A DNA stretch of 64,000 nt from NCBI GenBank assembly GCA_015179025.1, contig WHUX01000002.1, positions 744,001-808,000 on the forward strand. The letters are read 5' to 3'. Positions 1 to 58,025 of this stretch are shown in pieces. Position 1 is the stretch's first letter. Each line of letters begins with the position of its first letter. Below the pieces are notes generated by a model, which did no database searches, had not been told where the DNA came from, and saw only the letters and a program-made list of their open reading frames with translations. This DNA is from Terfezia claveryi. Taxonomy: Eukaryota; Ascomycota; Pezizomycetes; Pezizales; Pezizaceae. A program made the translations under genes and the position numbers.

Positions 1-711
1 ATTTTGGTATTCAGTTGATGCTGCAGTTGGTACCATGTGGACAAGCGCAGCGGTACTGCGCCAAAGGCGCCTGCAACCAGACTATGTTTCAGTTACCGTA
101 CTGTAGAAACTCGAAAACGAGAACCACATCCGAACTCACGACCCTTAGATTTCGGTGACGCACTTGGGCGCTTTGCAAAATTTGCTAGGTAAACGGTCTA
201 TTCCAATCATTCAATTAGCACTTCGCAATGGTTGTTTTCAAGCACATCCCACTAAAATTTCCGCCGTGGCCTCACAAACAACTCTCAAGGTCATGTGCAA
301 AAGTAGATCTACCAAAAGGTCATTCGGTACCATGATAGGGAGCAATGTCTAAGAGGCTCAGTCCCCAGGGATGAGGCACTGCATGCATGTCTCATAGGGC
401 GCAATTACAAGTCGAACCAGAAAGCAAAAGCCACATGTCCAGGTAAATCAATGGTAGGAAATCTCCTTTTGAACTCATACTACTGCGCATGGGCGTATTC
501 GACCAGGGGGTTTGAGAAGCGGAAGGGTGGGGTATTACCTGAATAAATTTTGGAGGATTTCCCTGAATCTTTCTTCATTCAATTACAGGAACTTGGATTT
601 CCACGGGCGATCCCTACGTATTTTCCACCTTTACTACAGATCTGATCCTTCGAAACCGAGCTCATACGTACACACCTCTAAAGTTTTGCTGAAATATTAA
701 AGTTAACGCTA
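1..711. other. gene-free stretch
   Basis: No supportable gene. Short open frames here lack introns, codon bias or recognisable domains. It holds one exact copy of the dispersed CAACCAGACTA/TAGTCTGGTTG repeat at 74-84 and a small hairpin just upstream (GCGCC-AAA-GGCGC). Confidence 0.5.
74..84 (-). repeat. TAGTCTGGTTG dispersed repeat, exact copy
   Basis: Exact 11-mer in minus orientation. No flanking direct repeat was found. Confidence 0.75.
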
Positions 712-1164
712 ATGGCCATTCTTCACACAATGATACCACTGCTTCTCGCCCCATTACTCGCAAGCCCCGTATCATCATCCCCCATATCATCTACCCTCGA
801 GCGCCGAAAAGGAGGAGGCGGAGGCGGTGGTCGCGGTGGAGGTGGAGGAGGTGGAGCCGGTGGAGCTGGTGGTGGTGGCGCGTAAGAAATCCGGCCCGTT
901 CCAAAGAACCCTTACTTCTCTATACCCCGCTTACGCATAAACAACTCCAGAGGTGCCATGTCTGGCGGTGTCATTGCAGGAATAATCATTGGGACCGTAC
1001 TAGGAGTCCTGCTCTTACTACTGTTAATATGGTACATCAATAAGAGGCAGTTCGATAAAAGTCAAGCGTCAATCGTGTCAAAGGAAGCACTTATTTCGCG
1101 AACAAGACCTATGGAAATTTCGACACCACAAAAGCCACCGGCGGCGTGTCACAGTTCGGGTTGA
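712..1164 (+). CDS. small glycine-rich single-pass membrane protein
   Basis: Two-exon model: exons 712-881 and 951-1164, intron 882-950 (69 nt, GTAAGA donor, CTCCAG acceptor), giving 127 aa. The first open frame stops exactly at the donor, and splicing joins it in frame to the second. In order I see an N-terminal hydrophobic signal sequence (residues about 1-22), an ERRK basic site, an almost pure Gly stretch (about 34-58), a strong transmembrane helix (about 62-82) and a short basic cytoplasmic tail. The topology suggests a type I plasma-membrane or wall-facing protein. I do not recognise a named family. The function is unknown; a cell-wall sensor or an anchor of low-complexity ectodomain type is only an inference. 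Confidence 0.68.
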
Positions 1165-1641
1165 GGTAAATTTGTTCAATTCGCAGATTATTGGGTCTGG
1201 GCAGAGCACGATACTCTGACTCGGGAAGCTCAATTGCGGGATAATGGAAAGGAGTGAAATTTGGTTTGGGTCTCTTTTTAACTGATGTGGCTACCTTTTT
1301 TACTTTTTTTATATGACTAATTTTGACTGAATGGTTAACTGCCTGTATACGTAGTCTTGTTGGATTTTTTTATCGAGATTTATGACCTTTGTATTTCAAC
1401 ATTGATATCACTCCGTTCTTCAAAGCACAAAACGCAAATGCAGGCCTCATGAACACTACTTTAGAGAAGGAAAAGAAATTCAGTAGAGCAGCAAAGACAA
1501 ATGAAGTAGAGAAGGGTTGAACAAATGAAAGGCTGAAGTAGTCCATATTGTGAAAGAAACAAGAGTAGGTAAGCACAAGAGACCTCAAAACCTTATACCC
1601 AACGAAGAACAGACCAAAAAAAAATGATATTGAATAAGAAA
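1165..1641. other. intergenic
   Basis: T-rich 3' flank of the glycine-rich protein gene. A 72-codon minus-strand open frame (1370-1588) is hydrophobic but has no supporting feature. I see nothing else. Confidence 0.45.
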
Positions 1642-1961
1642 CTAGAAGAGAGCAATGCTGTAAAGGTGTTGTATCAAGGTGATCTACTTGACAGCAGAGA
1701 TATGGTTAACATGTCTTACCTTCCTCCCAGCTTCCTCATCTGATCCCCAAGCTCCTTGATGCCATCTCTGATTTCTCGTTGAGTGCATCTGATTCCTGCT
1801 CCATTTTCCCTCTTACTATCGTAGTTTGTAGGTCTCCATAAATATACGAAACCTGAAGCAATTAGTCCCGGTGGTAGATACCATAGGAATGACTGGCCCA
1901 AAGCAGCCAGATTGTCTGCCCGCCTTGTTGATGTTCTTCCCTCAGGGAGCCCTTGTAGCAT
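1642..1961 (-). CDS. possible small membrane protein, uncharacterised
   Basis: Doubtful two-exon model: exon 1 1961-1720, intron 1719-1658 (62 nt, AG|GTAAGA donor whose TAA would otherwise be the stop, CAG acceptor), exon 2 1657-1642, giving 85 aa. It shows one hydrophobic segment (about residues 25-43, starting SFLWYLPPG) followed by a charged, possibly helical tail (REIRDGIKELGDQMRKLGG). The start is the first ATG in the frame, although the frame stays open upstream to 2030 without another ATG, so a 5' exon may be missing. I recognise no family. The splice-donor/stop coincidence is the main reason to list it; it could also be a gene relic. Confidence 0.3.
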
Positions 1962-4392
1962 ACAGTAAAGTCTCCGATATAAGTAGGCAATGGAGTCCCA
2001 CAAGAACTTGTATGGGAGTTTAAGAAACACTCGTTATGGGCATAGTTGTGCTGAGTAATACATACAGCAATGTATAGTCTGGGGGGCTTATTAGTCTAAA
2101 TAATTATTCCCCTTTTCATCACTTCACGTGACTCTTGTTTATAATCCCGCTCGTGGCTGGACGTAGTCCGGACGGACAAATATATATTTAAAGCGCAATG
2201 CTCGTGTTTGAATCTGAGCCCACTGGTATGAGAGTCGCTCACAACTTTCTTACCTTCAATTTTTCAATCCTTTGCACTGATGGTCATTACCGTACGGAGT
2301 ACGGACATGTTATCCAATGATCCGATCTATATATATATACAGCATTGCAACCCCTTATTTCTCACTCCAGAGGAAAGCAACAAGCCTGATACTTTCACAA
2401 CTGATAAATAACAATCAGAACTACCGTACCTGAAATTAGGTTATCCTGAGAGGAAGAATTAATAGTTTGAACTTCCAAATATTTTTGGCCCAGCCTGGGC
2501 AAAATTTGTATGGAGATTGTGTTTTCTCTTAAGAACCCTTTGCCCATTCTATATACGGTTTTAAGTTTAGGTATGGCGAGGGCAAAACTCAAGATTAAAC
2601 AGGTGGATGGTATAACACTGAGAAAGAACACCCCTTGCCAGTTTTTGTTCGGAGATTGTTCGCCAGTGGATGCGTGCATGAGTATTTCCCATGCTGAATT
2701 CAGATCTGTTGAAATAGCACCCTAGGCACGGTATGCCTATAATAACTGCCGTGACATAGAACTCTTTCCGGTGTTTAAAATTCTAGACAATTGTTTTGTA
2801 TAAGGAGCCACGAACAGGAATTCTGTACACAGCAGAAAGAGTGTGCCCAACACCTGTGTCCTGCCTACACCCGTTCTGGGTTTGTCTAAAACTATATCCA
2901 GGTGTAAATAGCCGTTTCACACCAAACCTTGCACCATAGTACCTGACACCCGTCGAGTCTCCGTTCATGGTACCAGTATCCGTTTGCATTTTTGAGCATG
3001 TATAGAGAGTGTCTACCGTCAAACGATTCAAGCTGGTTTGGTAGATGTGATATATAGTTATAATTAGTGGCGTATGAAGATAACTATAATATAATACAGG
3101 ATCAACCTAGATATAGGATTGGCCGATCGAGGCGTGATGCTCAAATGTCAGACGGTCTCATACACAATGTTTTAGATGGTCTCTGCAGAAAGTACATGAT
3201 GCAAGTTCCCGAGAGCCCGTCCTACAGAACACGAATCTGGTTGGATCCAGGGCAAAAGGGCTCATTGTGGGAAAACCAGGGGAATCTGACTCTGCGCCCC
3301 TGTCACCAGCAGTTCTACTACACGTCCAGCAGTACTTACCTAATATAAAGGGCACCCCCAGCGTTGATTTTCCTCACTGGTTCCTCCGTTTTTGCGGACC
3401 AGCATTTAGATTGGGCATTCATACTTTACCCCTGCGTAAACTGTAGTTCAAGTGCATAAAGAGACGTACATGTACCATGGTAGGAGTCAAGGGGAGCGGT
3501 ACCGGCACCCGCGTTGATGGAACTTTGAAAACCGCTCGACTCAGTCTCGAAAGGGCTGAAAGGGCCTCAAGATCTAATATACTGTGAGTGCCGGTATGTG
3601 CGAGAGGGGGAGAGGGGCAATGTCAACCGGGATACATATAGCTAATCAGTAAGTCAGTTCTTGACCCTGAGACATGCTGAATATAGCGCCCTGATGCTTG
3701 ATGTTCTTGATGTTCTTGACGTTCTCTGGATTCGTGACAACTGGTTGAGATAGGAGGACCCCACTTGAATCGCCAACAGAGGGTAGGCCTCAGCGTCACG
3801 GCGGTGACTCGAAGCCGATGTAGGTCTCACGCCCGGCTTCGGCTGGCTATATGTTTGTTCGTTTGAGTGATTCGGTCTGGCTGTGGCTGGTCGTTCGCTT
3901 GTAGGGAGCTTTCCCTCGTTTGATACGCAAGCCATCGCTTTGGCTTGAAGGACTTCCCTTCCAGTTCTCAGGCTGCCCCGCCCTGCCCCACACACCCCAC
4001 CTTGCGGTCCAACTCCCACAAAGCCTGAGCTTGATACGACGGCCTATAATCTGAAGCTTTATATAATCGTGAGTAATTACTAAATGTCTCGTCGGTCCTA
4101 CCATGCTAATAGCATTGCCAAGTTCAAGTGGTGCTGCTGAGTGACCAACGCCTCTGCGGTGCACCATTGAGCCTTGCCCGCCGGACGGGCTTCTTTCTGT
4201 CTTCCCTTCTCAGTCTGCCAGCCGCTTATACGTCTTTTCTTCCCTTCATCTGAACAGCTCAGGGTTCGCACTCCTGCCTGGGATTCACAAAGAGCGGCTA
4301 GAACCACGGCTCGGATACCTCCCGGCCGGCCTTCCCCAAGGGATAAGCACTATTCATAGTAGAGCGGGCCGACCGATCATCGGGCCTCTAAA
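1962..4392. other. gene-free stretch
   Basis: No convincing gene. Overlapping short open frames on both strands (2395-2725, 2783-3355, 3654-4307) shadow each other and show no domain. AT-rich segments near 2180-2345 and a TATATATATA run near 2331 are present. The last 200 nt form the promoter of the 4393 gene. Confidence 0.45.
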
Positions 4393-6309
4393 ATGCCTCT
4401 GAACTCCGCAGTCCCCACACCGTCGCTACCACTCACGACTCAGACAAATCAAGAGAATGGCATTCCACAGCGGCCACCTCATCCGCTTCTCCTGAAAGCC
4501 ATTGATTCCCAAATCCATTTACTCTTCAAGGCCTGGATTCATTATGCATACTCCCTCCCACTAAAGCCTCAGCTCGGAGCTGGTGAGCTCTATAGCCAGA
4601 TGGATGCTCGAGTTCAAATCTTCGCAGTTATCACGTATGAGTTTAATCGACTGATAGCCGACTTTTCCTTGGAATATGGAAAGGATCATCCATGCTTGAA
4701 GGAGACATCCACAAAAGATGTCTCGGCTTATTCAAAGTGTGTAGAGTCAGACATAGCAAAGCTGTGCGACCTCTGGAATGAGTACTCGGTAGCTTTCGAA
4801 GAGAAGTTCAGAGAGGCAAGGAGGGAACGACTTCCTAAGCAGGAGGCAAATTTGATGAAAGAGGAACTGAGTAGGTTGCTCTACGTCAGTAGGGCAATGG
4901 AAAAAGTGTGGCTAGATGGCGAGCAAATGCACCTAGAGACTCGGAAATGCTCTGACAAAGATGAAGGAATCAAGAGGTGGATTGCAGATACAAGCTCACA
5001 TCTCCAAAACGACAGACGTGTAAGGCTAGGTAAGACTATGATGCTAAAGGTATTAGAGGCAAATAAGACAGCATCTGAAAGATTTGTTGAAGAGCTGAGA
5101 GAAAGGCTACAACGTAGGAAGCACGCCATACTCAATCACAATTATGTGGAAGCTGAGGACTATGAAAAGGGGGCTGGTCGGCCGCGGGGCTGCCAAATGG
5201 AGGAGAAGACCACGAGGGTACTGACAAAGAAGACGTGCCCCAATGTGGAATTCAGCACATCTCTACCAAGCTCCATGACAGATAGTCTATGGGATGGCGA
5301 AGGGAACCGGGTCAGCGAAAGCTCTTATGACGAATTTGACATTAACGACCTGAGGTACCTCACCCCAATGTTGTTCCCTAGGCCTCCAACTCACATGGCG
5401 CTTCTTGCGACGAAGCCCTTGATACAACAACATCCCACAACACTACGAGGATCGAATACTGTTCCAGTTATACCTCCTCCAGATCATCCTCCTCCATCTC
5501 CCCCTTCTCCTCCAGACTTACTCAGAGCGAATTGTTCAGCTACCATAGTCACACCACGTTCCCCATGTCAAAATCCCCACTCTCAACAGACAGGTAATAC
5601 AGCCCCGGCATACCCCGCCAGCTCACGATCCTGCTCAACAGGTTCGTCAATACTTGCAACTATCCCCAACGGGGATCCGCGCTTTTCTTTCAAATCCCTC
5701 TTCTCAAAGTCCAGATCGAGAACGGTTTCGAGGGAAGCCGCCCCAGAAAAAAAACCGGCAGAGCCAGTAGATGCAGTGTTAGCATCCCAACGCACCCTCA
5801 CGCCACCCCCGCTCGCCCCGTTCAAATCCATCCCAAAACCTCACAGTATGGCTAGTTTGCGAAGCCCGCAAAGTCTAGCACCAATATTGGCGAATGTTGC
5901 AAGACCACCAGAAATACCAGCTGGAAATCCTAATCAATCACACGAGTGTCAGCTTAGTGGAGTCCTCGTGCCCAACTTGGAGCAGACCAACACTGGTCGT
6001 CGTCCCTACATGACAGCGAGCTTGTATGAACCTGCAGGTGACAGCGGCTGGGTGAGTCGGCCGGGAGATGGGACTGTGCTTTCACAGCCTGTAGACACTA
6101 TGTTGAGACCGAAGGGTTCGATGCTGTTCAATGGTAGGATAGTTAAGGAGGTTCCAAAGGGAGAGGAAGATCCTTTCCTAGAGATGCACGCCTTCAGGGG
6201 GAACCGTTTTAACGTTGCCATGCAGACGACTAGGGTATTCCACTATATCCTATGCGTTCATAGCCAGTTGATAGCCACAAAAATTTTTTGGGGGGGGTTT
6301 TGCAAATGA
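4393..6309 (+). CDS. uncharacterised coiled-coil and proline/serine-rich protein
   Basis: Single long open frame, 638 aa, with ATG in an acceptable context (TCTAAAATGCC). The N-terminal half (about residues 30-255) is charged and helix-forming with coiled-coil character (for example EEKFREARRERLPKQEANLM). The C-terminal half (about 340-560) is low complexity, rich in Pro and Ser, including a PPPDHPPPSPPSPPD stretch and a basic SKSRSRT patch. No signal peptide, TM helix or catalytic motif is visible. The last about 25 residues are of different, hydrophobic character and may be read-through of a 3' intron, because a candidate donor follows the TTR at about 6231; the true C-terminus is therefore uncertain. 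The function is unknown, probably an ascomycete-specific scaffold-type protein. Confidence 0.75.
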   Translation: MPLNSAVPTPSLPLTTQTNQENGIPQRPPHPLLLKAIDSQIHLLFKAWIHYAYSLPLKPQLGAGELYSQMDARVQIFAVITYEFNRLIADFSLEYGKDHPCLKETSTKDVSAYSKCVESDIAKLCDLWNEYSVAFEEKFREARRERLPKQEANLMKEELSRLLYVSRAMEKVWLDGEQMHLETRKCSDKDEGIKRWIADTSSHLQNDRRVRLGKTMMLKVLEANKTASERFVEELRERLQRRKHAILNHNYVEAEDYEKGAGRPRGCQMEEKTTRVLTKKTCPNVEFSTSLPSSMTDSLWDGEGNRVSESSYDEFDINDLRYLTPMLFPRPPTHMALLATKPLIQQHPTTLRGSNTVPVIPPPDHPPPSPPSPPDLLRANCSATIVTPRSPCQNPHSQQTGNTAPAYPASSRSCSTGSSILATIPNGDPRFSFKSLFSKSRSRTVSREAAPEKKPAEPVDAVLASQRTLTPPPLAPFKSIPKPHSMASLRSPQSLAPILANVARPPEIPAGNPNQSHECQLSGVLVPNLEQTNTGRRPYMTASLYEPAGDSGWVSRPGDGTVLSQPVDTMLRPKGSMLFNGRIVKEVPKGEEDPFLEMHAFRGNRFNVAMQTTRVFHYILCVHSQLIATKIFWGGFCK

Positions 6310-7245
6310 GCTAAGAATCAAGAATTCCAGTTTTTGCTATTAGTTAGGGCTTCGCCATTGACTCAAATAATGTAAATAGCACCTAGTGAATATGCTCTAC
6401 AGGATGTGCATACATGATATCTAGATAGGCTCAATACTTATATGCATCTACAATATGCTTGACTACCGGGCAAACGATTCTCCTCTATATTCACTCCTCA
6501 CCTACGCCTATTGTGCCCTAAGATGATTGAGCCCAGGAAGTGTGGCCTTTGGCTTGCAGGTACAGCCAATGGTCCCCTCTCTTTGCAGATATCAAAACTA
6601 ACATTGAGCATTTAGGGTAACTTCACTCTCGTAGTGTCACTACTCAGCCTGTGAACCAAATTTATCCCATCCACCATAATCCTCACACCGCCTCGGAAGC
6701 CCTGTCACCATTGTTGATAGCCGACATATATGGAGTAGTGTATATTCAGGTCTACACCATTTACAGTGTTTAGATGTTTTTATTAAATCATTTCTTTTGT
6801 TTCTATTTTTTATATAGGGAACGGCGGAGGAGGAGGAGGAGAGCGTCAAGTGATTTTTCTAGCAACTCCCTCCGAGTCCCATCTCTAGACCAGTGGGTAC
6901 AATATACATCCTCATTGCGGTTGGAGAGGATATTTGTATAGCAGATGGAGAAATATTTGATTTTTTTGGGGGGGTTGCTGAGACTCGACCATAGTATTGT
7001 TGAAGGTCAGCAAAGCCTAAACAATTGTTGAGAGAAAGTCAATTAAGCTCATTTTTCGACTGCTTTTTGTCTACCTTTCCAGACTATAAATTCTCCAGTC
7101 CTCTTTTCACAAATGTCAAGGTCACTTCAAAGACAAGAGTTCTTTAGAGAACTGACTTGTCTTACCGTTCAGGTCTCATCGTTCTTGTTTTCGCTGCACT
7201 TTCATTTATGCACATATGCTGATTGCATTATATAGCCTGTTTGGA

Positions 7246-7256
7246 CAACCAGACTA
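7246..7256 (-). repeat. TAGTCTGGTTG dispersed repeat, exact copy
   Basis: Exact copy, minus orientation. The flanks share TTTGG on both sides (CTGTTTGGA and TTATTTGGG), at best a decayed target duplication. Confidence 0.75.
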
Positions 7257-7468
7257 TTATTTGGGATGAGTCGGAGATTCCCACATCACTAGACCGATAT
7301 TTCTCCGATATCTCCACTCAGCTTCCGGATCTCTAGCCCGTAGAGTCTTGAACTATGTCTGGCGGGTTCGAAAAACCTTTTGAATTAATCCAACCCCTCC
7401 GCTGAGTCTATATAATATTACCTAAAGGATTGTTACGGTGTCAGGGTGAAGCAACCTAAAGCCTGACA

Positions 7469-7486
7469 CCCCCCCCCCCCCCCCCC
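7469..7486. repeat. poly-C tract (C18)
   Basis: Run of 18 C on the plus strand in gene-free DNA. Confidence 0.9.
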
Positions 7487-9780: not shown

Positions 9781-11119
9781 TTATGGACTTTTAGGAGGAT
9801 TGTTCAATGGTATTCGGTCATCCACACCTGGCGTATATATCTCGACCCTCTGGGGCTGTACTGTGCTCTCGCCGCCCAATTCCGATGGTACCCACGAGGT
9901 ATGGGGATGAGTAGGCGAAGAGCTCCCATACATTGAAGCATGTGAGTTATGGGGATGGGTAGGCGAAGGGCTCCCATACATGGAGGCATGTGGGTTAAAC
10001 TGGGAGTGAACAGGGCTGAGGGGAGGGGCAGGTGGTGCCAATCCCTTTCCTTCCCATGATGGCCCTCTTTGTCCATAATATTCGGGGGGAGGATGGTCAC
10101 CATATGCACCGGGGGCGGGCCCGGAATCCACTGCCGGCTGGGCAAAAGGTGTAGCGGCAGCAGTCGCCGCTGCCTTCTCGGAGGCAGACTTTCTTCTCGA
10201 GCGCCCAATAAGGAAAAAAAGCAGGCCAACCAAAGCCACAGCCGCTATAGCGCCAATAATGATACCAACAATTGCCCCAGTCGAGAGGCTCTTGCTTCCA
10301 GATGTATTAGTAGGTGGCCCTTCGGGTGGTGCTGTTTGGCCAGGGCTCATTTCATAATCAGCGTTCTTTGCATTCGCTTGGAATGTTGCGAAAGTTTGAT
10401 CGGCGGAGCTATATGGTGTTATTTGTAGCCCCAGAGAAACAAGAATAGGCGAGAAAACGTACGGATTAACAGCGAAAACCATTCCCCATCCTGCACACGA
10501 ACCGGCACTACTACAATAGAAGAAGCGTGGGTCGTTTGTATCAACCCTCCATGTCCAGGTTTGTGGCTATTATTTTGCACCTCGTTAATATGCTTCCTGA
10601 TGATCAAATCCTGCAAAAGGTTTCATAAACATACATTCGTACGAGCTACCTTTTCCGTAATTAATCCAGACCAAACGTCCTGAGCGCCAATGTGATAAGC
10701 ACTCCATGGAACACAGGGGGCTTTGTAATCGGCCAGAGTGACTGAGTGCGTGGTCGGATAGAATTCGAATTCTTATTTTATTGCAGTGCGCATGTAAGCT
10801 CCTGCACACGAGGAACCATTGAAAAATAAAGAAAACTCACTAATAACATCGCCAATTGTTGCGTTAACAACCTCAGGGTTGTATCTATGGGCTGTCTATT
10901 CCATATATTAGTCATAGGCATGAGGAGGACGAAAAGGGGTTACATTAAACTCACCTTAGCCACAGTCACAATGATTTGTTTCTTGCCTGAGTCTGGACCT
11001 TTGTCGTAACTCGGAGTTGAAGGTGATACTTTTCCCTGCCCTTGTGGTACTAGAGCGACAACGCTGGAAACTCTAAGCGCTAAAACAAGAGCTCCTAGGA
11101 AGTTCATTGAGGGCCTCAT
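9781..11119 (-). CDS. membrane-anchored cupredoxin-domain protein
   Basis: Four-exon model: 11119-10955, 10895-10841, 10771-10635, 10566-9781. The introns are 59, 69 and 68 nt (GTGAGT, GTGAGT and GTATGT donors); all phases agree, giving 380 aa. Order: signal peptide (about 1-22), one cupredoxin domain (about 48-156), Ser/Pro linker, TM helix (about 216-240), basic stop-transfer RSRRK and a Pro/Tyr-rich cytoplasmic tail carrying a 16-residue tandem repeat. Cupredoxin landmarks are GDVIKFEFYPTTHSVTLAD (His82), Cys93, FFYC (Cys137) and SCAGWGM (Cys143, Met148). Many fungal relatives carry His directly before the second Cys of this C-terminal loop; here it is Ser, so copper binding may be altered or lost. 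Likely surface-exposed. The family is sometimes annotated as extracellular serine-rich protein. Confidence 0.88.
9901..9996. repeat. 48-bp tandem repeat inside the cupredoxin gene tail
   Basis: Two copies of a 48-bp unit (9901-9948 and 9949-9996) with a few transitions between them. They encode the repeated tail motif HASMYGSxSPTHPH. Confidence 0.85.
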
Positions 11120-12800
11120 TGTGTCAGTCCGCGAAATAAATCCAAAACTCTGTATTCACAGGGACACTTTAAAAATCGAATCCGAAGAGGCAGCAATTGC
11201 CTGACTGGAGGGCAGAAATTCGAAAACAAGTCTCGAAGGCTGTACAAGCTGCGGGCCCTTCCCCAGTATTTAACAATCCGGAATATGGGTATAGCCCCTG
11301 CAAGCCCCCGTGTTGGCGGTCGGCTTACTTGATTTTCTTGCGTGGGCTGCCAGCAATGGGAACTGGGCTCAATGCAGCCAAAGAGCCGTCTATTTCTGCC
11401 AATCGAAGGTCAGCTTTTCGTTAAGCCACTTGCCTTCCTCGAACCCGTGTGAGAATGACAAGACTAACCATGTGGAGGGCACTCACATCTCGCGGACGAA
11501 ATACAGTTGCATATTCCGAACTGGTATCGGGACGATCCATTATTAGGGCTGAAGCTGACCGGGGGTGGTGTGGTTTGTCAAAAGGAACTTGCATGGGAGG
11601 GGTTGACTTGATTTTGGTCAGGTGGGATCTCCTAGCTTCGTCTCCAGCTTTGTCCACGATGATACAAATTATACTAATACTCAACGGTTGACTTGCAGGT
11701 ACATCATACAAACCTATTGGCCTTCATACGAAGGGATATTGCTTAGCTCCGCAACCCGAGAGGCTGACGCCCGTCACCAATAAATAACAGAGGCATTGAC
11801 AGGTATGTACAGGAAACGAGCATGCCTATATTTGTCCTCGCGCCGCTGTAGGTTGCACAAAGCTTTTATAAGATCTTTTTCATTCCTGCGCCGCATTCCT
11901 TTCCAACTAGCAAGGAAGGGGAAAACTCAATGGGGGGATCACGTGACGGCAATCGAGTGATTGATTCTTAGACCTTCCAACTTATGTACAATATGTCGCG
12001 TGGCGGAAAGAATGAAAATACAGCGACTAAGTAACTAGTCACTAGACAAGTGAGACAGCGTTAGGGATATGCGTATGCACATACCCATAACCTGACTATG
12101 TATGCATGCTCGGTGGTCTCGGACTCGGCACGCTTCCGGTATGTAGGTACAGGATATGGTCGAATGCAATACCATAGTACCTACGGGAAATTAACGCCCT
12201 GGCAAACGATAGCCCCAAGGCGTGAGACTGTCAGGAGAGTGGTTTTGTATGAGTATATCCGTAGGGCTCACGATATCAATCGATTCCCTTACCATAATAC
12301 CGTATCTATGTAGCTCCTCATTACCCTCAGATAGTGTATCTGCCTAAATTTAGAAGTATAAACCTAAATACAAATTCCACAATAAGCATCTACAGGCTGT
12401 GCCAGTTGTTAGCAATGTTTCATTGCATGTATTAATACCTCTTGAACTTTTCGAGACTCTCAAAGAATCAAGCCCTCTTTTACGCCACCCATTTGATATG
12501 GTGGAGATAGGCATTAGTTCTAGCGTAAATCGACCCAGGGTTTCCGTTTGGCGGGGGGCTTGTGCCAACCGGGCTACCCCAGACACTAGTCAACTAGACT
12601 AGCCAGACACAGAGCAAGTCGGTGCCGAAAGTGGTTAGGAAGAGCTTAGTGGTTTAGGTATGCACAGCATGGAGAACAGTTCCCGAACCGAACCCAAATA
12701 TTTCGGCTACTTAATTACAGTTAAGGATATTAAAAAGCATGAACTCCTGGTCACCTTATAAACCATATTTTTTAGGCTAAAAATATCAAGTTCATTAGTC
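11120..12800. other. intergenic
   Basis: Upstream of the cupredoxin gene and downstream of the 899-aa membrane protein. Short overlapping frames at 11197-11711 show no domain. A degenerate copy of the repeat (CAACCGGGCTA) lies near 12567. Nothing else is seen. Confidence 0.45.
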
Positions 12801-23066: not shown

Positions 23067-23131
23067 TAGTCTGGTTGAAAGGGCGGTTAGAGGGCGGCTA
23101 GTCTGGTTGGAGAGGGCGGTTAGTCTGGTTG
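23067..23131 (+). repeat. cluster of three TAGTCTGGTTG copies with 9-bp duplication
   Basis: Exact copies at 23067-23077, 23099-23109 and 23121-23131, all plus orientation. The middle copy lies in a 13-nt insert (23098-23110) flanked by identical 9-mers AGAGGGCGG at 23089-23097 and 23111-23119; the bases next to the 9-mers differ, so the duplication is exactly 9 bp. The related GGGCGGTTAG beside the first copy suggests nested or successive insertion. Confidence 0.85.
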
Positions 23132-31779: not shown

Positions 31780-31787
31780 ATACAAAA

Positions 31788-39442: not shown

Positions 39443-39475
39443 AACCTCACCTTGCCAACCAGACTAAACCTCACC
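39443..39475 (-). repeat. 15-nt mini-insert with perfect 9-bp target duplication
   Basis: AACCTCACC (39443-39451), then TTGCCAACCAGACTA (39452-39466), then AACCTCACC (39467-39475). Flanking bases differ, so the direct repeat is exactly 9 bp. The insert is the reverse complement of TAGTCTGGTTGGCAA. Confidence 0.9.
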
Positions 39476-39491
39476 CCTGCCCTCATGGGGC

Positions 39492-39608: not shown

Positions 39609-39641
39609 GGGGATGTTTAGTCTGGTTGGCACGGGGATGTT
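39609..39641 (+). repeat. 15-nt mini-insert with perfect 9-bp target duplication
   Basis: GGGGATGTT (39609-39617), TAGTCTGGTTGGCAC (39618-39632), GGGGATGTT (39633-39641). The duplication is exactly 9 bp. Confidence 0.9.
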
Positions 39642-39934: not shown

Positions 39935-40147
39935 ACTACCGCATCCACTGGTGTATAACGGTCCTTGTTAGTTTAAAGACAAGGGTCGAGCTTATACAGT
40001 ACTAAAGGTTATATCCAAGCGCAATGGTAACACGCTCACTGAGGTATAACGGTCCCCAGCTTATTGAGAAAGTGCACTAATGCTACCTATGTCTTTAAAC
40101 AACCAGACTACTGACAAGGATCGTTATACACCAGTGGATGCGGTAGT
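39935..40147. mobile_element. MITE with about 38-bp terminal inverted repeats
   Basis: 213-bp non-coding element. The left arm begins ACTACCGCATCCACTGGTGT and reads on to TTTAAAGAC (ending about 39980). The right arm (40092-40147) is its reverse complement with two substitutions and one 11-nt insertion, CAACCAGACTA (40100-40110), the dispersed repeat. An internal direct copy of TATAACGGTCC lies near 40045. A 9-bp direct repeat TAGTATGGC occurs at 39913-39921 and 40144-40152, the latter overlapping the right end; it may be the target duplication if the true ends differ from the TIR ends. The superfamily is unknown. Confidence 0.85.
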
Positions 40148-40408: not shown

Positions 40409-40419
40409 CAACCGGACTA
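40409..40419 (-). repeat. TAGTCTGGTTG dispersed repeat, one mismatch
   Basis: CAACCGGACTA, reverse complement TAGTCCGGTTG. No direct repeat found. Confidence 0.5.
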
Positions 40420-40629: not shown

Positions 40630-40640
40630 CAACCAGACTA
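40630..40640 (-). repeat. TAGTCTGGTTG dispersed repeat, long form
   Basis: Exact copy. The extended match TTGTGCCAACCAGACTA runs from 40624 to 40640 (17 nt), the longest version of the motif. No direct repeat found. Confidence 0.75.
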
Positions 40641-42195: not shown

Positions 42196-42241
42196 CCACC
42201 ACCACCACCACCACCACCACCACCACCAGCAGCAGGAGCAG
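42196..42241. repeat. (CCA)n / (CAG)n microsatellite
   Basis: About eleven consecutive CCA units followed by CAGCAGGAGCAGGAG. Confidence 0.9.
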
Positions 42242-49746: not shown

Positions 49747-49805
49747 CCCTGAGCCTAGTCTGGTTGCACAATACGAGAGGTTGTGCAACCAGACTACCGT
49801 GAGCC
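49747..49805. mobile_element. 41-bp palindromic mini-element with 9-bp target duplication
   Basis: CCCTGAGCC (49747-49755), element 49756-49796, CCGTGAGCC (49797-49805; 8 of 9 match). The element is a perfect inverted repeat: TAGTCTGGTTGCACAA, a 9-nt loop, TTGTGCAACCAGACTA. Two exact copies of the dispersed 11-mer face each other as terminal inverted repeats. Confidence 0.85.
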
Positions 49806-50736
49806 CACCGAAGATCCATAAGTTCTGACAGGCGTTCTAGGGATGTTCTGAGCCACAGTTAGTAATCGTTACCAAAAAAGCTGCTAAATCGGCCAACTCA
49901 CAAATTGTCTAGTGATTCTTCCTAATTACACGTGCAAATGCACCATCTCCAAGGTAATATGCCATTATTCTCACTTTCACAATTGCAAGATCCTTGCCGT
50001 CTAAAGGTCTAGCAGATAGGTTGGGGCATGGTAGGGTGGAGAACTGAATCGAAATGAGCGATATTTTCTGTTTTTGGGAGCTGCTTGAAACATAATATCA
50101 CAATAGCTAGAGCGGGGGCATTCTGCCTAGCACCACATATATTAGCAAGTCGTAATGTAGTCTGGGCAGGTATATTAATATTGGAGCTCACAATAAAGCT
50201 AATTCGGTCAACTCCTCAGTATACTGTATTGTCTTGCTATTCGTCGTGACGGTCTTATCATATTTCCCACAATGAAACAATCCGATGACATGCATAATGA
50301 GTAACATCTATCATGCCCGCAATAGGTAGATCCTTGGACAAATGATCTCGGCAATATTCGAATGCTGCGCAGTGAGAGATATGTTCGTTGTCAAGTTCTT
50401 TCTTTTGACGCCTTCTGTAGAATTTGAATCAGAGAGTGTATTATAGTAAGCATTATGAATTTCGTACGTGGAGAAGTGAAGTTCAAAATGCTACATACAA
50501 TTAGAAGCAGGAGAAAGTTTTGACTACGGGGGTGTCGGCGGCATAGAGCGATAGCTCTAAATTATAGAGGATGAGCTGGCGTTTATGGGGAGGGCATGAA
50601 CATTTTTATCGGAAATAGGCATGCTGAGAATGTAGATGATCAGCTATGGGATTTCTGGTAGAGTTATCGGAGGGTCAACTGCCTATGATGTTGGCTTGTC
50701 GTCCTCCTAACCTGGTGAGGGTACTTAGTACTTAAG

Positions 50737-50747
50737 TAGTCTGGTTG
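50737..50747 (+). repeat. TAGTCTGGTTG dispersed repeat, exact copy
   Basis: Exact copy; followed by GTATTCGAAG and preceded by GTACTTAAG, a resemblance too weak to call a duplication. Confidence 0.7.
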
Positions 50748-52283
50748 GTATTCGAAGCCCTATAGCTATTGCGTTTGCTTGGTTTTTTTTTTCTCGGTGA
50801 TCCAGCTCAATTTTTCTAGATGGTAGGTATATACTATATATATAGGCAGTGTGAAGTTTCATCATTTTTTGACTTAGTCCACTTCTACAACCAGATATAT
50901 ACAGCCCCAATCAGAAAGTATCCGGGACTCATAAAAAGCACTAGACGCCGGCTGAACCACTACTTAGATTAGTTACGTCTACAATCGTTTTCAAACCAAA
51001 CATGCCCAGAGAGAGAGTGAATGGACCGAACCCACCTCCGGATTCTTCACATTTCCCGGATGAGCTTCATTCACTCACCATGAAGCCCGATACGAGTAAT
51101 GTATTTAATAAGAAACAATCTGTTATGCAGATATACAATCTGCTGATTATATTGCTACTGGTATGAGGGAAATTTATTGCGAAGACAATCAAAATTTCTA
51201 GGAGATGATATGTTATTTAGGAAAAACCTCAAACCTGAAAATATCAACTCTCGCTTCATGATATTGGCACCTGCAGTTTTAGATATTGACCACCCATACT
51301 CCAAATTTGCTAATATACATGAAGTTATGGAGGATCTACTGCAGATTCAGCTCAGACTATAGGCAATTGCCACCTACCGCTTTCCCCTGAGCGGGGGGCA
51401 TCTCTTAGTAGTTTGTATGGACGCTCTTCCCTGCTGAGGCCTTTACCAACTCTATTTCATATTCGTACGTCATAGTTATGCCCTTGGATAATCTCGAAAC
51501 AAATAGAAGTGTAATACTTACCCACAGTCCCCGAAGCATTCGTGTGTTTCCTATCATTAGGTGCAAGATAGCTAAACCCCTCATCATAACCCAATTCTTG
51601 TCAGATATATTGTATGTAGATTCTTCTTTGGGAGTTGGCGTGGCTCTGAGTGGGATCATCCAGCTGTGGTCCCGCATGGGATGCGCGTCTTCGGGCAGAT
51701 AGCTTATACAAGTACTGAATTACCTTCCCCCCCCAAAGAAAAAAAAAAAAAAAAAAAAAAAAAAACTTACCCCCAACGGCAATAGCATAGTCCAAATGAT
51801 CACATCTTCTGCTACATGTCATCTCCTTATGTCCAGTCTGCAAAAGGAGCGTGGTGGACCTTGCTGAGTGTGCCATAGAGTCATGCTCAGGAGAGTGCCT
51901 TTCTTGACGTCAGCGATCAGCTTCCTTCCGTAGAACGGTTTCATTTTACCTGTGACGGTATGAGCCTGATGCATAAACTGGATGCCACCTCTCTAGGGGT
52001 ACTTTATATATGTTGAATTACCACGGGTACACTTCATCCAGCTAAACACCTATACGGTGTTATGAAATCAAAAGAGATATATGAAATTAGTACCCAGCAG
52101 CCGAGCTAGATGAATATTGATAAGATTAAACCAATATAATTACCCTTAGGCGGAGCGGTTCAAGCGGAGTCTCGGTTCCTTCGGTGTTCAGCATAGTTTG
52201 TGGGGCTGGTATGAGATAATCTTAGAAACTTGATGTTTATATAGCTCTCGGCGAAGTATAATTACAGCTCAACAGAGTTCTAA

Positions 52284-52363
52284 GTCTCCGTAGCTCAGTG
52301 GTAGTAGCGAGAGATTGCAGCTCAGTTATCTCTAGGTCAGGCGTTCGAACCGCCTCGGGGACT
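52284..52363 (+). tRNA. tRNA-Cys(GCA) with a short intron
   Basis: Acceptor stem GTCTCCG / CGGGGAC (one T-G pair) with T as discriminator base. D-arm GCTCAGTGGTAGTAGC has one extra base compared with the usual GCTCAGTGGTAGAGC. Anticodon stem AGAGA / TCTCT encloses a 14-nt loop TTGCAG...A, so anticodon GCA is followed by about 7 extra nt (CTCAGTT) at the canonical 37/38 intron position. Variable loop AGGTC; T-arm AGGCG-TTCGAAC-CGCCT. A-box (TAGCTCAGTGG) and B-box-like (GTTCGAACC) sequences are present and a T-run terminator follows. The U73 discriminator and GCA anticodon both fit Cys. Confidence 0.88.
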
Positions 52364-52379
52364 TTTTTTTTTTTTTTTT
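52364..52379 (+). terminator. RNA polymerase III terminator
   Basis: Sixteen T directly after the tRNA discriminator base. Confidence 0.85.
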
Positions 52380-53465
52380 ATTTAAAAATCTTCAACTGAT
52401 TGCCTTAGTCAGCGACTTATACTAAATATATCACGTGACATAAGTGGGGCAGTTTTCGCGGTGCAGAAATAACAGACCAACATAATATAAGTTCTCGTGA
52501 GGAGGAAACCTACTTGTTACATACTCTGGCAGTAATCTGGCTATAGTCTCGTGCCCAGAGCCTCGTAGATCATTTGCGTCCCGCGATCAAAGTTTGTTAG
52601 GTAGCTTTCCCCCGCTTGTTGCAAATCAATATAAATTGTTATCCCATACCCTCATGATAATATGTCAGATAGTTAACCAGACTACCGAAAGGTATGCCTG
52701 GCAGGTGAGTATTTGACAGTCTACTATTCTATCCTACCACTTCATGGCACATTATTGACGTATCTAATAACTCAACCCTAGGGAAGCTTGTGGGATGATC
52801 GAGAGCCTTACACCGCTATGGACCTCTAGATCTCTGATGAAAGAAAACTCTGCCCCCTGGTATTTTCTAGAATAACTACAGAGGCCCACGGACTGAATAC
52901 TATCACAAGTCCTCAAAGCTCCTAGTTTCATGTGTTTGCTGGGCCTATTTCTCCTTCAATAGTAACAGTATGGCAGCCCTCGAAAATGCTGTAATAATTT
53001 GCGTGCCAGTTTTCTGCCCTATGAATTCGAAGCATGCTTCAAACTTCTGGAACACAAAATGTGGAATTGTAGGCGCTATTGACTGTATGCTTGGAAGCTT
53101 CGTGCACAAAAATAGTTGGGGCAGCTGCGCCCGGGCCTCTGGGACCCTGAAACCAATTGAATAATCTAGGGGCGGCTGCACTTCGAACCGTGCCGCTTCA
53201 AAGATTCCCTCGATCTAAAAGTCGTTTCAGTGATGTCATTCGTTGGCAGCTGGGTAGATGCAGTATAAGATACATCCGAAGTATATTTTTCTGTAGCTTA
53301 ATGGACTCTGAACAAGTTCGCAAGGGATGCACGCATCCGATAGTACAGATCTTCCTTTGAGACCGTGAAGTTTATCCATCCGTTGTACTATCGATCTCTT
53401 CTGAGGCACTAGGAGGACAGGGGTTTCTGTAGGATCGCAGGTGCGTGCAGCGTAAGATCGGTACA
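52380..53465. other. intergenic
   Basis: No supported gene. Contains a one-mismatch copy of the repeat (TAACCAGACTA, 52674-52684). Confidence 0.5.
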
Positions 53466-53972
53466 ATGAGTATTCAACAGACCAGATCCTGCTCGAATGT
53501 GAAGCCAGGTGTCAATCGATTTGCCGTTCCATGTATTATATCGGCTTTCATTCATATTATTTGTCAGTATGGTTTTCTGCTCGGAGCAGCTGAGGCTAAG
53601 CGTGAACCCTCTGTTGCGGAAGCAATGAAGGGTTTCCATGCCATATTAGACCCTCACCGGTATTACCAAACAAGCATACACACACGCTTTGATTGGAAGG
53701 GACAGTCGCTCATTGACAGAAGAGTCTGTTGGTTGGCTATTGTATCTTTCGTATTAAACCATCTCACAGTAGCTAAATATTTTCTTCAGATATTTAGCAT
53801 TCCAGAAACGCATTTGTCGTTCCCCTCTTTCTTGACTAACGTGAGAGAACCCCTCCTCAAAACACTTGCTTCCCTGCCTCCAAATATTGGAAATCCAATC
53901 TCAATACTGGTTTTGAACACGGTATCGGGTCTCCAGCATACCACTTGCTATCCGTTAGGTCTGCAACAATAA
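53466..53972 (+). CDS. possible uncharacterised membrane-associated protein
   Basis: Open frame of 168 aa from the first ATG (the frame stays open slightly upstream). Two hydrophobic segments are visible (about residues 20-42, AVPCIISAFIHIICQYGFLLG, and about 88-112, RRVCWLAIVSFVLNHLTVAKYF), with polar stretches between. No domain recognised, and no intron evidence. It ends 98 nt before the alpha/beta-hydrolase start on the same strand. It could be a genuine orphan gene or an open relic; a five-hundred-base open frame alone is moderate evidence. Confidence 0.35.
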   Translation: MSIQQTRSCSNVKPGVNRFAVPCIISAFIHIICQYGFLLGAAEAKREPSVAEAMKGFHAILDPHRYYQTSIHTRFDWKGQSLIDRRVCWLAIVSFVLNHLTVAKYFLQIFSIPETHLSFPSFLTNVREPLLKTLASLPPNIGNPISILVLNTVSGLQHTTCYPLGLQQ

Positions 53973-54070
53973 CCACCCATAGTGCCAGTCATCTGTGTTG
54001 AATTACTCATTTCCCTGACGGGGGTGTCTGTAAACTCACTAGTTGGTTGAGGTTCGGTGAACGAAGCCAG

Positions 54071-55566
54071 ATGGTCCAAAAATACACTTTCACGTACTCT
54101 AGGGTCTGCGGTATAGACATCGAGCTGGATATCTACCTTCCAGATTCTCAAAGTGTCAGCACAGTGGGAATAACTGCGATACCAGGAAGATCTGGAGCCC
54201 CAACTGCGATTTCTTCCGTGGTATTCTTTCATGGCGGCGGCTTGACGTGGGGAAATAGGGAAATGCTTCCCGAGCAGCTGAAAGGTATGATGATTCTCGG
54301 TCTTAGCTTCCGCCCAACCTTCTTTCTAGCAGATTTCATCCTTTCTTTCTTCTTGTGTCGTAAGTATACAGAATTTCCAGTATCTTCCTTCTATTCTTCG
54401 TTCGGCTTTCGTACAACTGTTCGAAACGCAGTAACTAGGCCACTTGTCTTTCGTCCCCGCTAAAGCACCAACGACAGTCGCTGGCCTTGCCTTCTCGTAC
54501 AGGTTCAGAAGGATTTGGAAGTCATTCATGTTTTCTCTCGACTTTATCCACGAATGCTAACAACGGGACTCATAATCCACCAGACGCCGTCCTTGGTTCC
54601 TCAATAGCCTTGATTTCGGCAGACTATCGCCTCCTATTTCCATTCTCCGCACGTCACATTCTCGAGGATGTCCTAGCTCTTTTCAGCTACCTTTCGACCA
54701 GTGTGAATCAGAACCTCATCGCTCAGAGTCCCACTATGCAACCGGCATACCTTATCTCGGACAGGTTGTTTGCCGTAGCAGGGGCTTCTGCAGGCGCATA
54801 TCCAGCTATGCTCGCCGCCTTGTATGCTACTCCACGTCCACGCGCCTTGTTTTCGCTTTATGGGATAGGTGGAGATCTCCTCTCGCCTTTCTACGTGCAC
54901 CAGGCACCGCTTTCAGGTTGGGAATCAAATTTGGGAGATAATCGGATGTTCCTCGTACCCACCGCCCAGGATAAACTATCCTTATTACCCGGCCTGTCAA
55001 ATTGCCCCGTCGACTTGCCATCGAATACGGTCATACCGGGCTATGAGGCGCGTGTGAAAAGCTTATACCGAAAGCTACTGGAAAATGGTACCTTCCTAGA
55101 CCACCTAATGGCCTTCCCAGGGCTAGGCGAACTGTTATTACAGGCGGGCAAGAAGGACAGTACGTCGGATCCAATCTCTCCATCGGCGGTCAATTGTTCC
55201 TCAGCATCCATAGGCTCTAGTGGCACCAGCCCATCATCCTCTGATACACAGAAACTCAAAAAACAGAAGATGGAAGCAGCCATACCAGAGAGTATTCGCT
55301 ATCTTTTCCCACAGCTTCATATCACAAGCAAGTTCCCTCCAACGTATTTAGTGCATGGCACGAACGATAAACATGTCGACTGTCGGGAGAGTAAAGAAAT
55401 GGCAAAACGACTTTATGAGGTTGGGGTAAAATGCGACCTTGTCCTAGCTGGAGGACTGGGACATGCATTCGACATGGCCCATGTATCAGGTCCTATGGGA
55501 CGGGTATTGTGGGATAGGTTTCTTGGAGAAGTGGTACCCTTCTTGCTGAAACACTTGAAGGAGTGA
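54071..55566 (+). CDS. alpha/beta-hydrolase fold-3 esterase/lipase-like protein
   Basis: Two-exon model: 54071-54284 and 54503-55566; intron 218 nt (AAAG|GTATGA ... GTACAG), phase 1; 425 aa. The ATG at 54071 starts a beta-strand pair (YTFTYSRVCGIDIELDIYLP). Oxyanion HGGG is at 54-57, followed by ISADYRLLFPF, the nucleophile elbow GASAGA (Ser167), acid GTNDKHVD (Asp360) and His392 in GGLGHAFDM. A Ser-rich insertion (about 300-320) precedes the last strand-helix units. The triad is complete, so the protein should be active on small esters or lactones; the substrate is unknown. The intron is long for this locus and contains a possible 30-nt in-frame exon (54332-54361, preceded by TTTCTAG and followed by GTAAGT), so the segment after LPEQLK is uncertain. 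Confidence 0.85.
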
Positions 55567-56682
55567 GAAGCGGTCGAGTAACGAGACTTGAGTTCAGTTC
55601 AAAATTAGCGATTTGACTGAGAGAATAACTAGCATATAGGCGATCGGCTAGGTGGGTACGATGGGAAGTATCTATTACCTAACAAGCATCCAAAGGGAAC
55701 ACTGGATATGCTTTTTATCGGAGGGCCCTAGAAGCTGACAAGGTTAAGTATCTAAATAAGCATGAATGCGGGAAATGTCTTCATGATTCGTTATGCATGG
55801 TGTATAAAAAGTTACCTGATCTATTTCTTCAAGTTTCCTATATGTATGTTTCGAGGTTAGCGAGTAAGGTCCTAGAATTGACAATGAGATGAAACACATA
55901 TTCGACCGAACCAAATCCATGCTTTGCTCCTCAGACTTTTAGCACTATCATATAGCTAGTATGTGGCGTGGGAGTTTAAATAAACTCCAATAACAGGCTT
56001 CCAAACTCATTGTATTCATGTTGTTACATCCTCCTTGTGATCTCGACCACAAGATGTCATTTTTCAGCAAAGCAAGGTAGAGAAGGCAATATATGTGATG
56101 GGCTTGTACTGATCGGGGAGCGTCTGCATATGTACCACGCATACATCGATCTCAAATCCTACACATCAATTTCGTGACCGCCACTATCAACCGTTCCAAC
56201 AATTGGTGGATAAAAACACTGAGATACCGTATATCACATTCTGCTATTTCGTGTGTCTGAGAGGTGTTTACTTCCCCAATTCCAGCCCGTTCTGCGTAAA
56301 ACATGCTCTGCGTGGCGGCACCTTTCTCTTAGTTGGTACAGTTACACACAGTTGTTAGTATTTTGATCGAGACTGTATTTATAAATTAGGATGGACCGGC
56401 TCAAAATATCAAGCATGCATGTGCCAGTGTCAATACCATCTCCAGTGTGACGGCTATGGTATCTAGCTCCGAGTGGCAGTGTGGATGTGACTAGGGCGAG
56501 AACATTCAAGTGGTTTGTTTTCGCCAGATGGTCACTTTGGCCGAATGTTATTTGTCCCTGCTTGTAGTTTCGGCCTAGGTACGGAGAGATTGTGGAACCA
56601 ACGAACTATCTTCATGAGTTGCCATGAATTACAAAGTGTGTCGTACCACAAACCAATGCTTGCTCTTTCTTGATATGTAATG

Positions 56683-56713
56683 TGGCACAAAGGTAGTCTG
56701 GTTGGCACAAAGG
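56683..56713 (+). repeat. TAGTCTGGTTG copy between 11-bp direct repeats
   Basis: TGGCACAAAGG (56683-56693), TAGTCTGGT (56694-56702), TGGCACAAAGG (56703-56713). The right repeat also completes the long motif TAGTCTGGTTGGCACAA. The direct repeat includes the 9-bp duplication GCACAAAGG. Confidence 0.8.
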
Positions 56714-57198
56714 GTGACCTGAGGTATTTGGTTCAAGATAATTCAGAACCTCGGGCTAGAGGTCGAGGTATATTGGAACCGCCGTTACGTAGGTCATTTA
56801 GGTTAGCTGTGGCTTCGAAGAGGGTGGAAGCAATTGCAAAAACTTCTGGCTAAGTAAATGTAAATGAAAGTGTCCTGAGGAAGAGAACTCACCTTCATTC
56901 AGCCTGAAAGCATTTTGAGCGATGATCATGACCGGACAAGTTCTTGAGTAATCACCAGCCTGTCTGTGCGGTCCACTTTGCAATTTGCTAGACACGGCGG
57001 GCCTTCACCAGTGGGTCTAAAAGCGACTTGCTTGTACCTCCATGATGGTGGAGTGGAGAAGTTTGGGCAAGATTCATGGTGTGAATTGTGGTAGTCCGAG
57101 GGGCTAGTGCAAGCCAGTGGTAGGTTTCACGGAAAGTGTAGTGTCTAACTACTTAACTTGTGGCTTATAGGTCTTGGGGAAGTTAACTTACCGTGTGC

Positions 57199-57209
57199 CA
57201 ACCAGACTA
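57199..57209 (-). repeat. TAGTCTGGTTG dispersed repeat, exact copy
   Basis: Exact copy, minus orientation, extended TGTGCCAACCAGACTA (57194-57209). It faces the plus copy at 56694, giving a 516-bp segment bounded by 16-bp inverted repeats, but without a matching target duplication. Confidence 0.75.
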
Positions 57210-57370
57210 GGTTTATGTACCTAACAATAACACTTAAGTGAGTTTGACTGAAGGGGTACAATAGCGCCGCTTTATCCCCACATACCTGACTACACCTTGA
57301 GATATATCGGAAACGCTGTCCGCCGCCTAGATATCTCCCGATCATTAGTCTCGAATTAATCACCTATGAC

Positions 57371-57419
57371 TAGGAGGCTAGCTAGTCTGGTTGGCACAAC
57401 ACCCTCCATAGGAGGCTAG
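57371..57419 (+). repeat. 27-nt mini-insert with perfect 11-bp direct repeats
   Basis: TAGGAGGCTAG at 57371-57381 and 57409-57419 flank a 27-nt insert (57382-57408) that begins CTAGTCTGGTTGGCACAACA. This is the longest non-palindromic insert of the family with clear duplications. Confidence 0.85.
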
Positions 57420-57509
57420 ACACGGTAGCCTGCCAATCTCCGCCAGCTACTCAGGCGAAAATTGACGTGTAGGTGATGATAGATTTGTGAACCCACCAAC
57501 TTCAAGTAA

Positions 57510-57650
57510 CTGATAATTGAAGCATATCAAATCCTTTGTGCTGTAGCCTATGGGTATCATGGTGTTCTTGAATTGCTTCTGGATGCTGGTACAGAAACTG
57601 AGGCAAGGACCTATTTTCATTGCACACCGTTGAAAGATATATGCCAATGA
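57510..57650 (+). pseudogene. ankyrin-repeat fragment (relic)
   Basis: Reading the frame CTG ATA ATT GAA gives LCAVAYGYHGVLELLLDAGT followed by ETEAR..., then TPL, the hallmark ankyrin pattern (A-x-x-G-H-x-x-VL-x-LLLDAGA...TPL). The frame has a stop just before (57507-57509) and a stop at 57648-57650; no exon structure extends it. It is about one and a half ankyrin repeats of a decayed gene. Confidence 0.6.
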
Positions 57651-57993
57651 TGTGAAGAGGCTGAAAAAGCATTGGCAGCGATACTTCTGATATTCCTTAC
57701 CTAAATTGTAGGAAATTTGAGCAGGAATTTATAAGAAGCAAGAAGCAGGGACATCACTGGCTGACATTTTTCAGGGCTGGACAATCTTGTACTCCAAACA
57801 AGGCTTGATTCTATTTATTCAGAAATCTAGCAGAAGTGAACGATGACATTCGAAACTCTCCCACACCCTTCCTCGTACGTCAACAATAGGAGGAGGAATA
57901 CATAAATCGAGGAAGGACATGTACAAGGTATAGACTCTGGTGGATGAGCAAATATTAAGTGAGCATCTAGAATTGCGAGTTAAAATGCAAATC

Positions 57994-58025
57994 TATTCTG
58001 GTTGAGCTTAAGCTCGACCAGACTA
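57994..58025. repeat. 32-bp palindrome of two diverged repeat copies
   Basis: TATTCTGGTTGAGCTT joined directly to AAGCTCGACCAGACTA: arms match at 14 of 16 positions, no loop. The ends are one-mismatch copies of TAGTCTGGTTG in inverted orientation. No target duplication seen. Confidence 0.7.

Follow-up and report, generated by a model that had tools for sequence, protein, structure and literature searches.

Short inserts between 9-bp direct repeats in Terfezia claveryi, probable excision scars of a DNA transposon

An 11-mer, TAGTCTGGTTG, recurs on both strands of a 64,000-nucleotide stretch of the ascomycete Terfezia claveryi (assembly GCA_015179025.1, contig WHUX01000002.1, here C112; C112:744001-808000, below called the window) and thousands of times in the genome, where many copies form one edge of a short insert placed between two 9-bp direct repeats. 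These copies are probably the excision scars of a cut-and-paste DNA transposon with TAGTCTGGTTGGCACAA ends and a 9-bp target duplication. We observed the inserts, their 9-bp duplications and length classes, sites empty of them, a diversity of junctions, and a symmetry of the target. Excision footprints as such are of a known kind; unusual here are how many copies there are, the predominance of two lengths, the frequent preservation of both duplications, and the failure to find a parent element where we searched.

Copies, target duplications, and empty sites

The 19 exact matches to the 11-mer in the window all lie at the positions, and on the two strands, given in a preliminary description of this DNA, and 16 further sequences differ from it by one mismatch, more than the ten or so estimated there. 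Exact copies had also been placed outside coding exons, and none of the 19 touches any of the 14 open reading frames (ORFs) of at least 200 amino acids, which cover 15,081 bases. The ORFs of the window suggest genes of the kind expected in a filamentous ascomycete. In the whole genome (72.56 Mb, 794 contigs), the 11-mer occurs exactly 5960 times (2935 and 3025 by strand) and its reversed control 57 times (32 and 25), and the 17-mer TAGTCTGGTTGGCACAA 1616 times (807 and 809), against none for its reversed control. With 19 copies versus 5.3 per 64 kb, the motif is about 3.6 times denser in the window than the genome mean. The outer end TAGTCTGGTTGG is common to the copies; the inner boundary varies by subfamily, the sequences diverging past CACAA into GCCTCTCGTAGAGA, GCCCCTCGTAGAG, CACCCTCCACAG, CACCCTCGTAG, CGACCTCTGA, TCCCCCCGCCAAACGGG, and others. 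A 24-mer pattern of the end had no match in viral contigs and none in prokaryotic genomes. We recognized no report of such scars in a fungus, and the 12-mer, sought as text in the literature, returned only items unrelated by title; neither search proves absence from print.

Target duplications were detected by seeking the 9 bases that precede TAGT again downstream, with a flank borrowed from another copy as the null. Among 203 copies, a set that includes loci picked for the 17-mer and in which a palindrome is counted once per strand, 81 have an exact 9-bp repeat, 17 a repeat with one mismatch, 11 a repeat of 8 bp, and 94 none; borrowed flanks gave 0.64%, 1.4%, and 0.32% for the three classes of repeat, respectively. 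A less biased set, partly picked for 17-mers and facing pairs, comprises the 81 exact copies of the window and of loci L001-L008, L036-L052, and L171-L188 of contig C1. Repeats were found for 41 of them (29 exact, 10 with one mismatch, and 2 of 8 bp), around inserts of 7–41 nt, against 1.3% under the null (0.40%, 0.67%, and 0.20%). Exact repeats are thus about 90 times more frequent than expected (29/81 vs. 0.40%). The preliminary description held that flanks no richer in 9-bp repeats than controls would contradict a history of insertion; the excess is strong in both sets.

The duplication length has its mode at 9, with 12 of 125 read as 8, and 64 of 92 exact repeats are not extendable past 9 bp, about three quarters being predicted for a true length of 9. 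In about half of the copies both duplications are kept around the leftover end, and in about one in three they are exact. Trimming on the side facing the insert is in excess among the 94 copies that lack a full repeat: a suffix of at least five bases is retained in 16 of them (3.4 expected), compared with 8 (3.8 expected) for the prefix control, which represents the opposite trimming. Target preference is weak. Base 1 of the 9-mer is rarely T and base 9 rarely A, A is favored two bases before the 9-mer, and C is depleted two bases after it. These preferences are mirror symmetric about the center of the 9-mer (correlation of 0.65 over 82 independent sites, with 12 of 2000 column permutations as high), which points to two identical ends inserted together and not to one-ended or RNA-primed insertion.

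Empty sites retaining a single 9-mer, which the preliminary description proposed to look for in other strains, are present among paralogues within this genome. We compared 121 joined sites with the fetched sequence; most of the matches not accepted were overlapping loci or motif-to-motif alignments. The 31-nt insert of L039 is missing from L145, which has one 9-mer (86 bp, 93% identical, no gap). Likewise, an 11-nt insert of L140 and L141 is missing from L139 (L141 vs. L139: 51 bp, 90%, no gap). L140 and L141 are loci of Mutator-like elements (MULEs), and the motif copies within their terminal repeats are inserts with their own 9-bp repeat. Less clean are a 15-nt insert in L141 compared with L140, where the sequences have diverged, and a 54-nt insert in L012 compared with L150, where the match is weak. 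All accepted comparisons oppose a scar to an empty site; a filled site was not seen among them.

A scan of 34 of the 35 exact and one-mismatch copies in the window found exact 9-mer repeats at 39466 (minus strand), 39618, 40419 (minus strand), and 56694, and repeats matching at 8 of 9 positions at 12601 (minus strand), 23099, 49756, and 57383; the remaining scanned copies have no repeat at up to one mismatch. In substance this agrees with the earlier account; the repeats at 56694 and 57383 can also be read as 11 bp. The copies concerned, and three others, are the following:

39618..39632, plus strand: 15-nt insert TAGTCTGGTTGGCAC between exact 9-bp repeats GGGGATGTT (39609-39617 and 39633-39641)
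39452..39466, minus strand: 15-nt insert TAGTCTGGTTGGCAA between exact 9-bp repeats GGTGAGGTT (39467-39475 and 39443-39451)
40409..40419, minus strand: 11-nt insert TAGTCCGGTTG between exact 9-bp repeats GTATAGACC
56694..56704, plus strand: 11-nt insert TAGTCTGGTTG between exact 9-bp repeats GCACAAAGG, readable as 11 bp TGGCACAAAGG
57383..57411, plus strand: 29-nt insert TAGTCTGGTTGGCACAACACCCTCCATAG with flanks GAGGCTAGC and GAGGCTAGA (8/9), or an exact 11-bp repeat with a one-base shift
49756..49796, no strand assigned: 41-nt double-ended insert with two inverted ends and flanks CCCTGAGCC and CCGTGAGCC (8/9)
23099..23111, plus strand: 13-nt insert in a three-copy cluster, with flanks GAGGGCGGC and GAGGGCGGT (8/9)
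12587..12601, minus strand: 15-nt insert TAGTCTAGTTGACTA, a left part plus a GACTA right end, with flanks matching at 8/9
40100..40110, minus strand: 11-nt TAGTCTGGTTG in the right arm of an inverted-repeat element, without a 9-bp repeat
40630..40640, minus strand: exact copy extending to the 17-mer; 9-bp repeat not found
57199..57209, minus strand: exact copy; 9-bp repeat not found

In two clusters (window 23067-23131 and L021:828-859), an insert occupies or adjoins the target repeat of a second insert, which produces short tandem arrays of the motif.

Insert lengths and junctions

The lengths of the 41 repeat-flanked inserts are bimodal. One group spans 7–15 nt with a mode at 15 (9/41), the other 25–41 nt with a mode at 31 (5/41); the longer group consists of 22 inserts of 25–36 nt and two rows at 41. 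An unchanged 31-mer, TAGTCTGGTTGGCACAAGCCTCTCGTAGAGA, occurs 78 times in the genome. Fourteen of 19 newly fetched sites of this 31-mer have a target repeat and five have none; in the 14 with a repeat, the insert ends at exactly position 31 in 9 and at 30–32 in 12. Five of 52 single-ended inserts of 18–36 nt finish with 3–11 nt of the opposite end, where about one would be expected by our estimate. An AT-rich repeat is represented by L161 and L165, in which the motif occupies one and the same site, with different inserts of about 49 and 29–35 nt. Their target repeat is indistinct, and the inserts may be separate scars derived from a single ancestral insertion.

Other inserts hold two ends in inverted orientation. 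We identified 26 sites with exact 17-nt ends separated by 6–36 nt and 26 further sites with 12-nt ends separated by 0–14 nt. Fifteen of the 17-nt-end sites were cut out as loci, and in nine of these the outer repeats are exact 9-mers; two of the nine, L011 and L023, are near-identical copies of one locus. As for the rest, the repeat has one mismatch in L021, is exact over 8 bp in L017 and L022, and matches at 7/8 in L019; L016 is a cluster and L009 is nested. L011 and L023 belong to 3-kb stretches of C3 and C408 that are 99.7% identical and share the insert, representing either a segmental duplication or haplotype copies in the assembly.

Once five nested or multi-copy sites are omitted (C1:725085, C112:981890, C424, C434, and C568), the junctions amount to 44 distinct strings at 47 sites. 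The repeated strings left out are those of C408 (the near-identical copy of the C3 locus), C301 (a different site), and C773:224804 (flanks not read), and one string retained, C112:981917, comes from a cluster otherwise omitted. Twenty-four of the 44 strings can be written as end plus end without filler, several sharing at least one base at the join (mean of 1.9 and maximum of 4 in a shuffled null). One is exactly 15 + 15 nt between exact 9-mers. Such diversity is as expected from the joining of two cut ends; one copied palindromic element would repeat one junction.

The search for a parent element

It had been suggested that a parent would appear as motif copies facing each other across 0.2–10 kb. 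On the first 764 kb of C1, which carry 80 exact 11-mers, none of the 23 facing pairs at a spacing of 65 bp to 9.5 kb share their outer 9-mer, the best matching at 6 of 9 positions. Facing pairs outnumber outward pairs clearly only below 60 bp (7 vs. 0); between 60 bp and 10 kb the counts are 23 versus 18, of which 12 versus 6 lie at 3–10 kb. Two 31-mers facing each other 3.2 kb apart on C712 were considered as a full element and rejected: their outer 9-mers differ at eight of nine positions. Of the two, only the left copy is flanked by an exact 9-bp repeat of its own.

MULEs resemble the putative parent by their 9-bp duplications, and they occur in this genome, where the MULE domain has 21 matches. 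Twelve of these matches were read at about 3.3 kb, six of them also at 7.9 kb, without facing TAGTCTGG ends followed by equal outer 9-mers. Unlike the short ends sought here, the six loci L136-L141 have terminal inverted repeats of about 0.8–2 kb, with internal self-similarity. L139, the only one of the six with resolved ends, begins with GGGGAAAACC and has its own 9-bp target repeat. The terminal repeats of L137 and L138 contain facing TAGTCTGGCTGG-like copies, whose outer flanks continue the inverted repeat and are not duplicated. The proposal of the preliminary description, scars of a 9-bp-duplicating transposon with the terminal repeat TAGTCTGGTTGGCACAA, is partly retained: the flank excess and the empty paralogues make scars the best reading, whereas the attribution to Mutator is not established. 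The other option of that description, minimal mobilized ends, keeps a lesser probability.

No facing TAGTCTGG ends with equal 9-mers were found at the 12 hAT loci read among 150 matches, nor at the single 8-kb KDZ locus read among 9 matches. Merlin elements are IS1016-like and duplicate 8–9 bp; their transposase domain, DDE_Tnp_IS1595, has no match in the genome, the control being positive in Haloferax. The P-type transposase domain PF21787 also gave no match, but its control was silent too. Near a KDZ transposase match, L154:1-800 contains a tandemly arranged 34-bp near-palindrome, TATCACACACGTAGGACGGGTTACGTGTGTGATA, at a spacing of about 49 bp.

A 213-bp inverted repeat at window 39935-40147 was rejected as parent, its ends reading TA-CCGCATCC or TA-CCGCATCCACTGGTGTATAACG. 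These ends recur elsewhere with varying neighbors, which marks it as a separate element; its sequence suggests a miniature inverted-repeat transposable element (MITE) of Tc1/mariner type, probably Tc1-like. Allowing up to one mismatch, the genome contains 105 matches to a 19-mer of its end, some of them paired face to face at a distance of about 150–690 bp.

Nor did a parent altered by repeat-induced point mutation emerge from the altered copies fetched. Copies of the TAGTCTAGTT type number 113; 16 were fetched, chosen among the most altered of 100 listed, and 13 of these 16 stretches have at most 35% GC. Several of the altered copies fetched again carry inserts of about 28–33 nt with decayed repeats. 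L155-L165 are AT-rich (17–35% GC) and their motif copies are altered at CpA/TpG positions, changes consistent with repeat-induced point mutation.

Probable excision scars, competing explanations, and known systems

We infer excision as such, an offset cut, ligation, and a parent element from these observations. Transposon subfamilies with the common terminus TAGTCTGGTTGGCACAA would have inserted, duplicating 9 bp, and later left, the residue being one or both ends, cut to about 15 nt or to about 25–36 nt (peak at 31), between two 9-mers. The transposase may nick one strand precisely where the element ends and its partner about 15 or about 28–31 nt inside, an offset that would leave a single-stranded 3' tail of the transposon end on each flank. 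Were a tail ligated to the 5' end that is recessed on the opposite flank, the order would be 9-mer, tail, 9-mer, with both duplications whole, that is, a single-ended scar. Two tails joined with nibbling would produce the inverted double-ended scars. An ordered ligation is worth proposing here because only 8 of 94 rice excisions kept two exact duplications.

Several observations weigh against excision scars. No parent was found on the 764 kb of C1, a search that was not genome-wide and that a parent with altered ends would escape. The identical 31-mers look young, so that a parent should still exist. No repeat is detectable in 40 of the 81 copies of the less biased set. Twenty of the 44 junction strings require filler or an unlisted end, and one double-ended string is present at two sites with different flanks, C190 and C301. 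The two arms of the 213-bp inverted repeat differ by an 11-nt copy, present on the right and missing on the left, that is not accompanied by a 9-bp repeat. Finally, the rice excisions in question were perfect, with exactly two duplications, in those 8 of 94 cases, repair being usually sloppier in the data given there (PMC4423477). The parent may have altered ends, may survive as one roaming copy, or may have been lost, or else the short units may move by themselves.

The last of these, in which a transposase from elsewhere inserts DNA of 15–31 nt (or palindromes of about 50 nt) with a 9-bp duplication and no longer parent exists, appears rather unlikely to us. It agrees with the lack of a long element where we searched, with the 78 identical 31-mers and their sharp right boundary in 12 of 19 fetched sites, with accepted paralogues that are empty or carry the insert and never a long element, and with the double-ended string shared by C190 and C301. 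However, the right ends differ between subfamilies, so that no second recognized end is apparent, and 44 strings at 47 sites are not one repeated palindrome. The two-fold symmetric target also argues against it, and partial right ends and trimmed 9-mers suit end joining. Pairs of cut-off ends might instead be inserted by the transposase at a 9-bp stagger, repair then joining the two or losing one. This would account for the 9-bp duplications, the two-fold symmetric targets, and the double-ended inserts without any resident long element, but single-ended inserts outnumber the four double-ended sites in the set formed by C1 and the window, and one end would have to be lost exactly; we consider it improbable.

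SINE-like (short interspersed nuclear element) retroposition of a tiny RNA truncated at one end would fit the inserts in having one fixed and one variable end, and a small hairpin is possible in the inner part of some units (a stem of at least four pairs in 10 of 32 distinct sequences, against a mean of 1.0 and a maximum of 4 after shuffling). A duplication length almost fixed at 9, two-fold symmetric targets, and inserts holding both ends inverted make this very improbable. A motif dispersed for regulatory or structural reasons, or a chance distribution, without any history of insertion, would fit the high copy number only; it is refuted by the empty paralogues and by a frequency of exact 9-bp repeats about 90 times that of the null, and we give it practically no weight.

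Excision scars of a cut-and-paste transposon, which we favor, can be compared with footprints in known systems. Alike are the two target duplications around leftover terminal bases, the nibbling, and the shared bases at the join. Ordinary footprints usually comprise a few bases, often with flanking deletions, whereas here about 15 or about 31 nt are left, roughly one copy in three keeps both 9-mers whole, there are thousands of copies, and no element was found where we searched. P elements duplicate 8 bp of target, against a mode of 9 here, and to our knowledge their end sequence is unrelated to the ends described here. The P element of Drosophila, to which THAP9 is related, nevertheless makes an offset cut resembling the one deduced here from scar lengths only: its transposase is described as cutting one strand at the boundary and the other 17 nt inside the 31-bp terminal repeat, leaving 17-nt 3' tails (PMC7776569, PMC10983969). 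So long an offset is called atypical in the account of P elements (PMC7776569). For Muta1, the account given in PMC5225508 is of mostly precise excision in the presence of target repeats and, without them, of up to 13 bp of the end occasionally left. MITEs are likewise short and non-coding, with inverted ends, a target duplication, and many copies, but the inserts described here have no common interior or fixed length, the double-ended ones being nearly as diverse in sequence as their sites are numerous.

If these copies are scars, a single genome has naturally preserved the outcomes of thousands of excisions and repairs by one transposon group, which offer a statistical readout of cut position, tail length, nibbling, and shared join bases, where reporter assays give tens of events. 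The existence of two favored tail lengths would mean that the cut is widely offset. Should the parent truly be absent, either the transposon was lost while its tracks persist or units of 15–31 nt move by themselves; in the latter case, they would be exceptionally short eukaryotic units inserting with a transposase-type target duplication.

Elsewhere in the window, a 48-bp unit occurs twice in head-to-tail order at positions 9896-9991, within the minus-strand ORF 9781-10482; the two copies are 90% alike.

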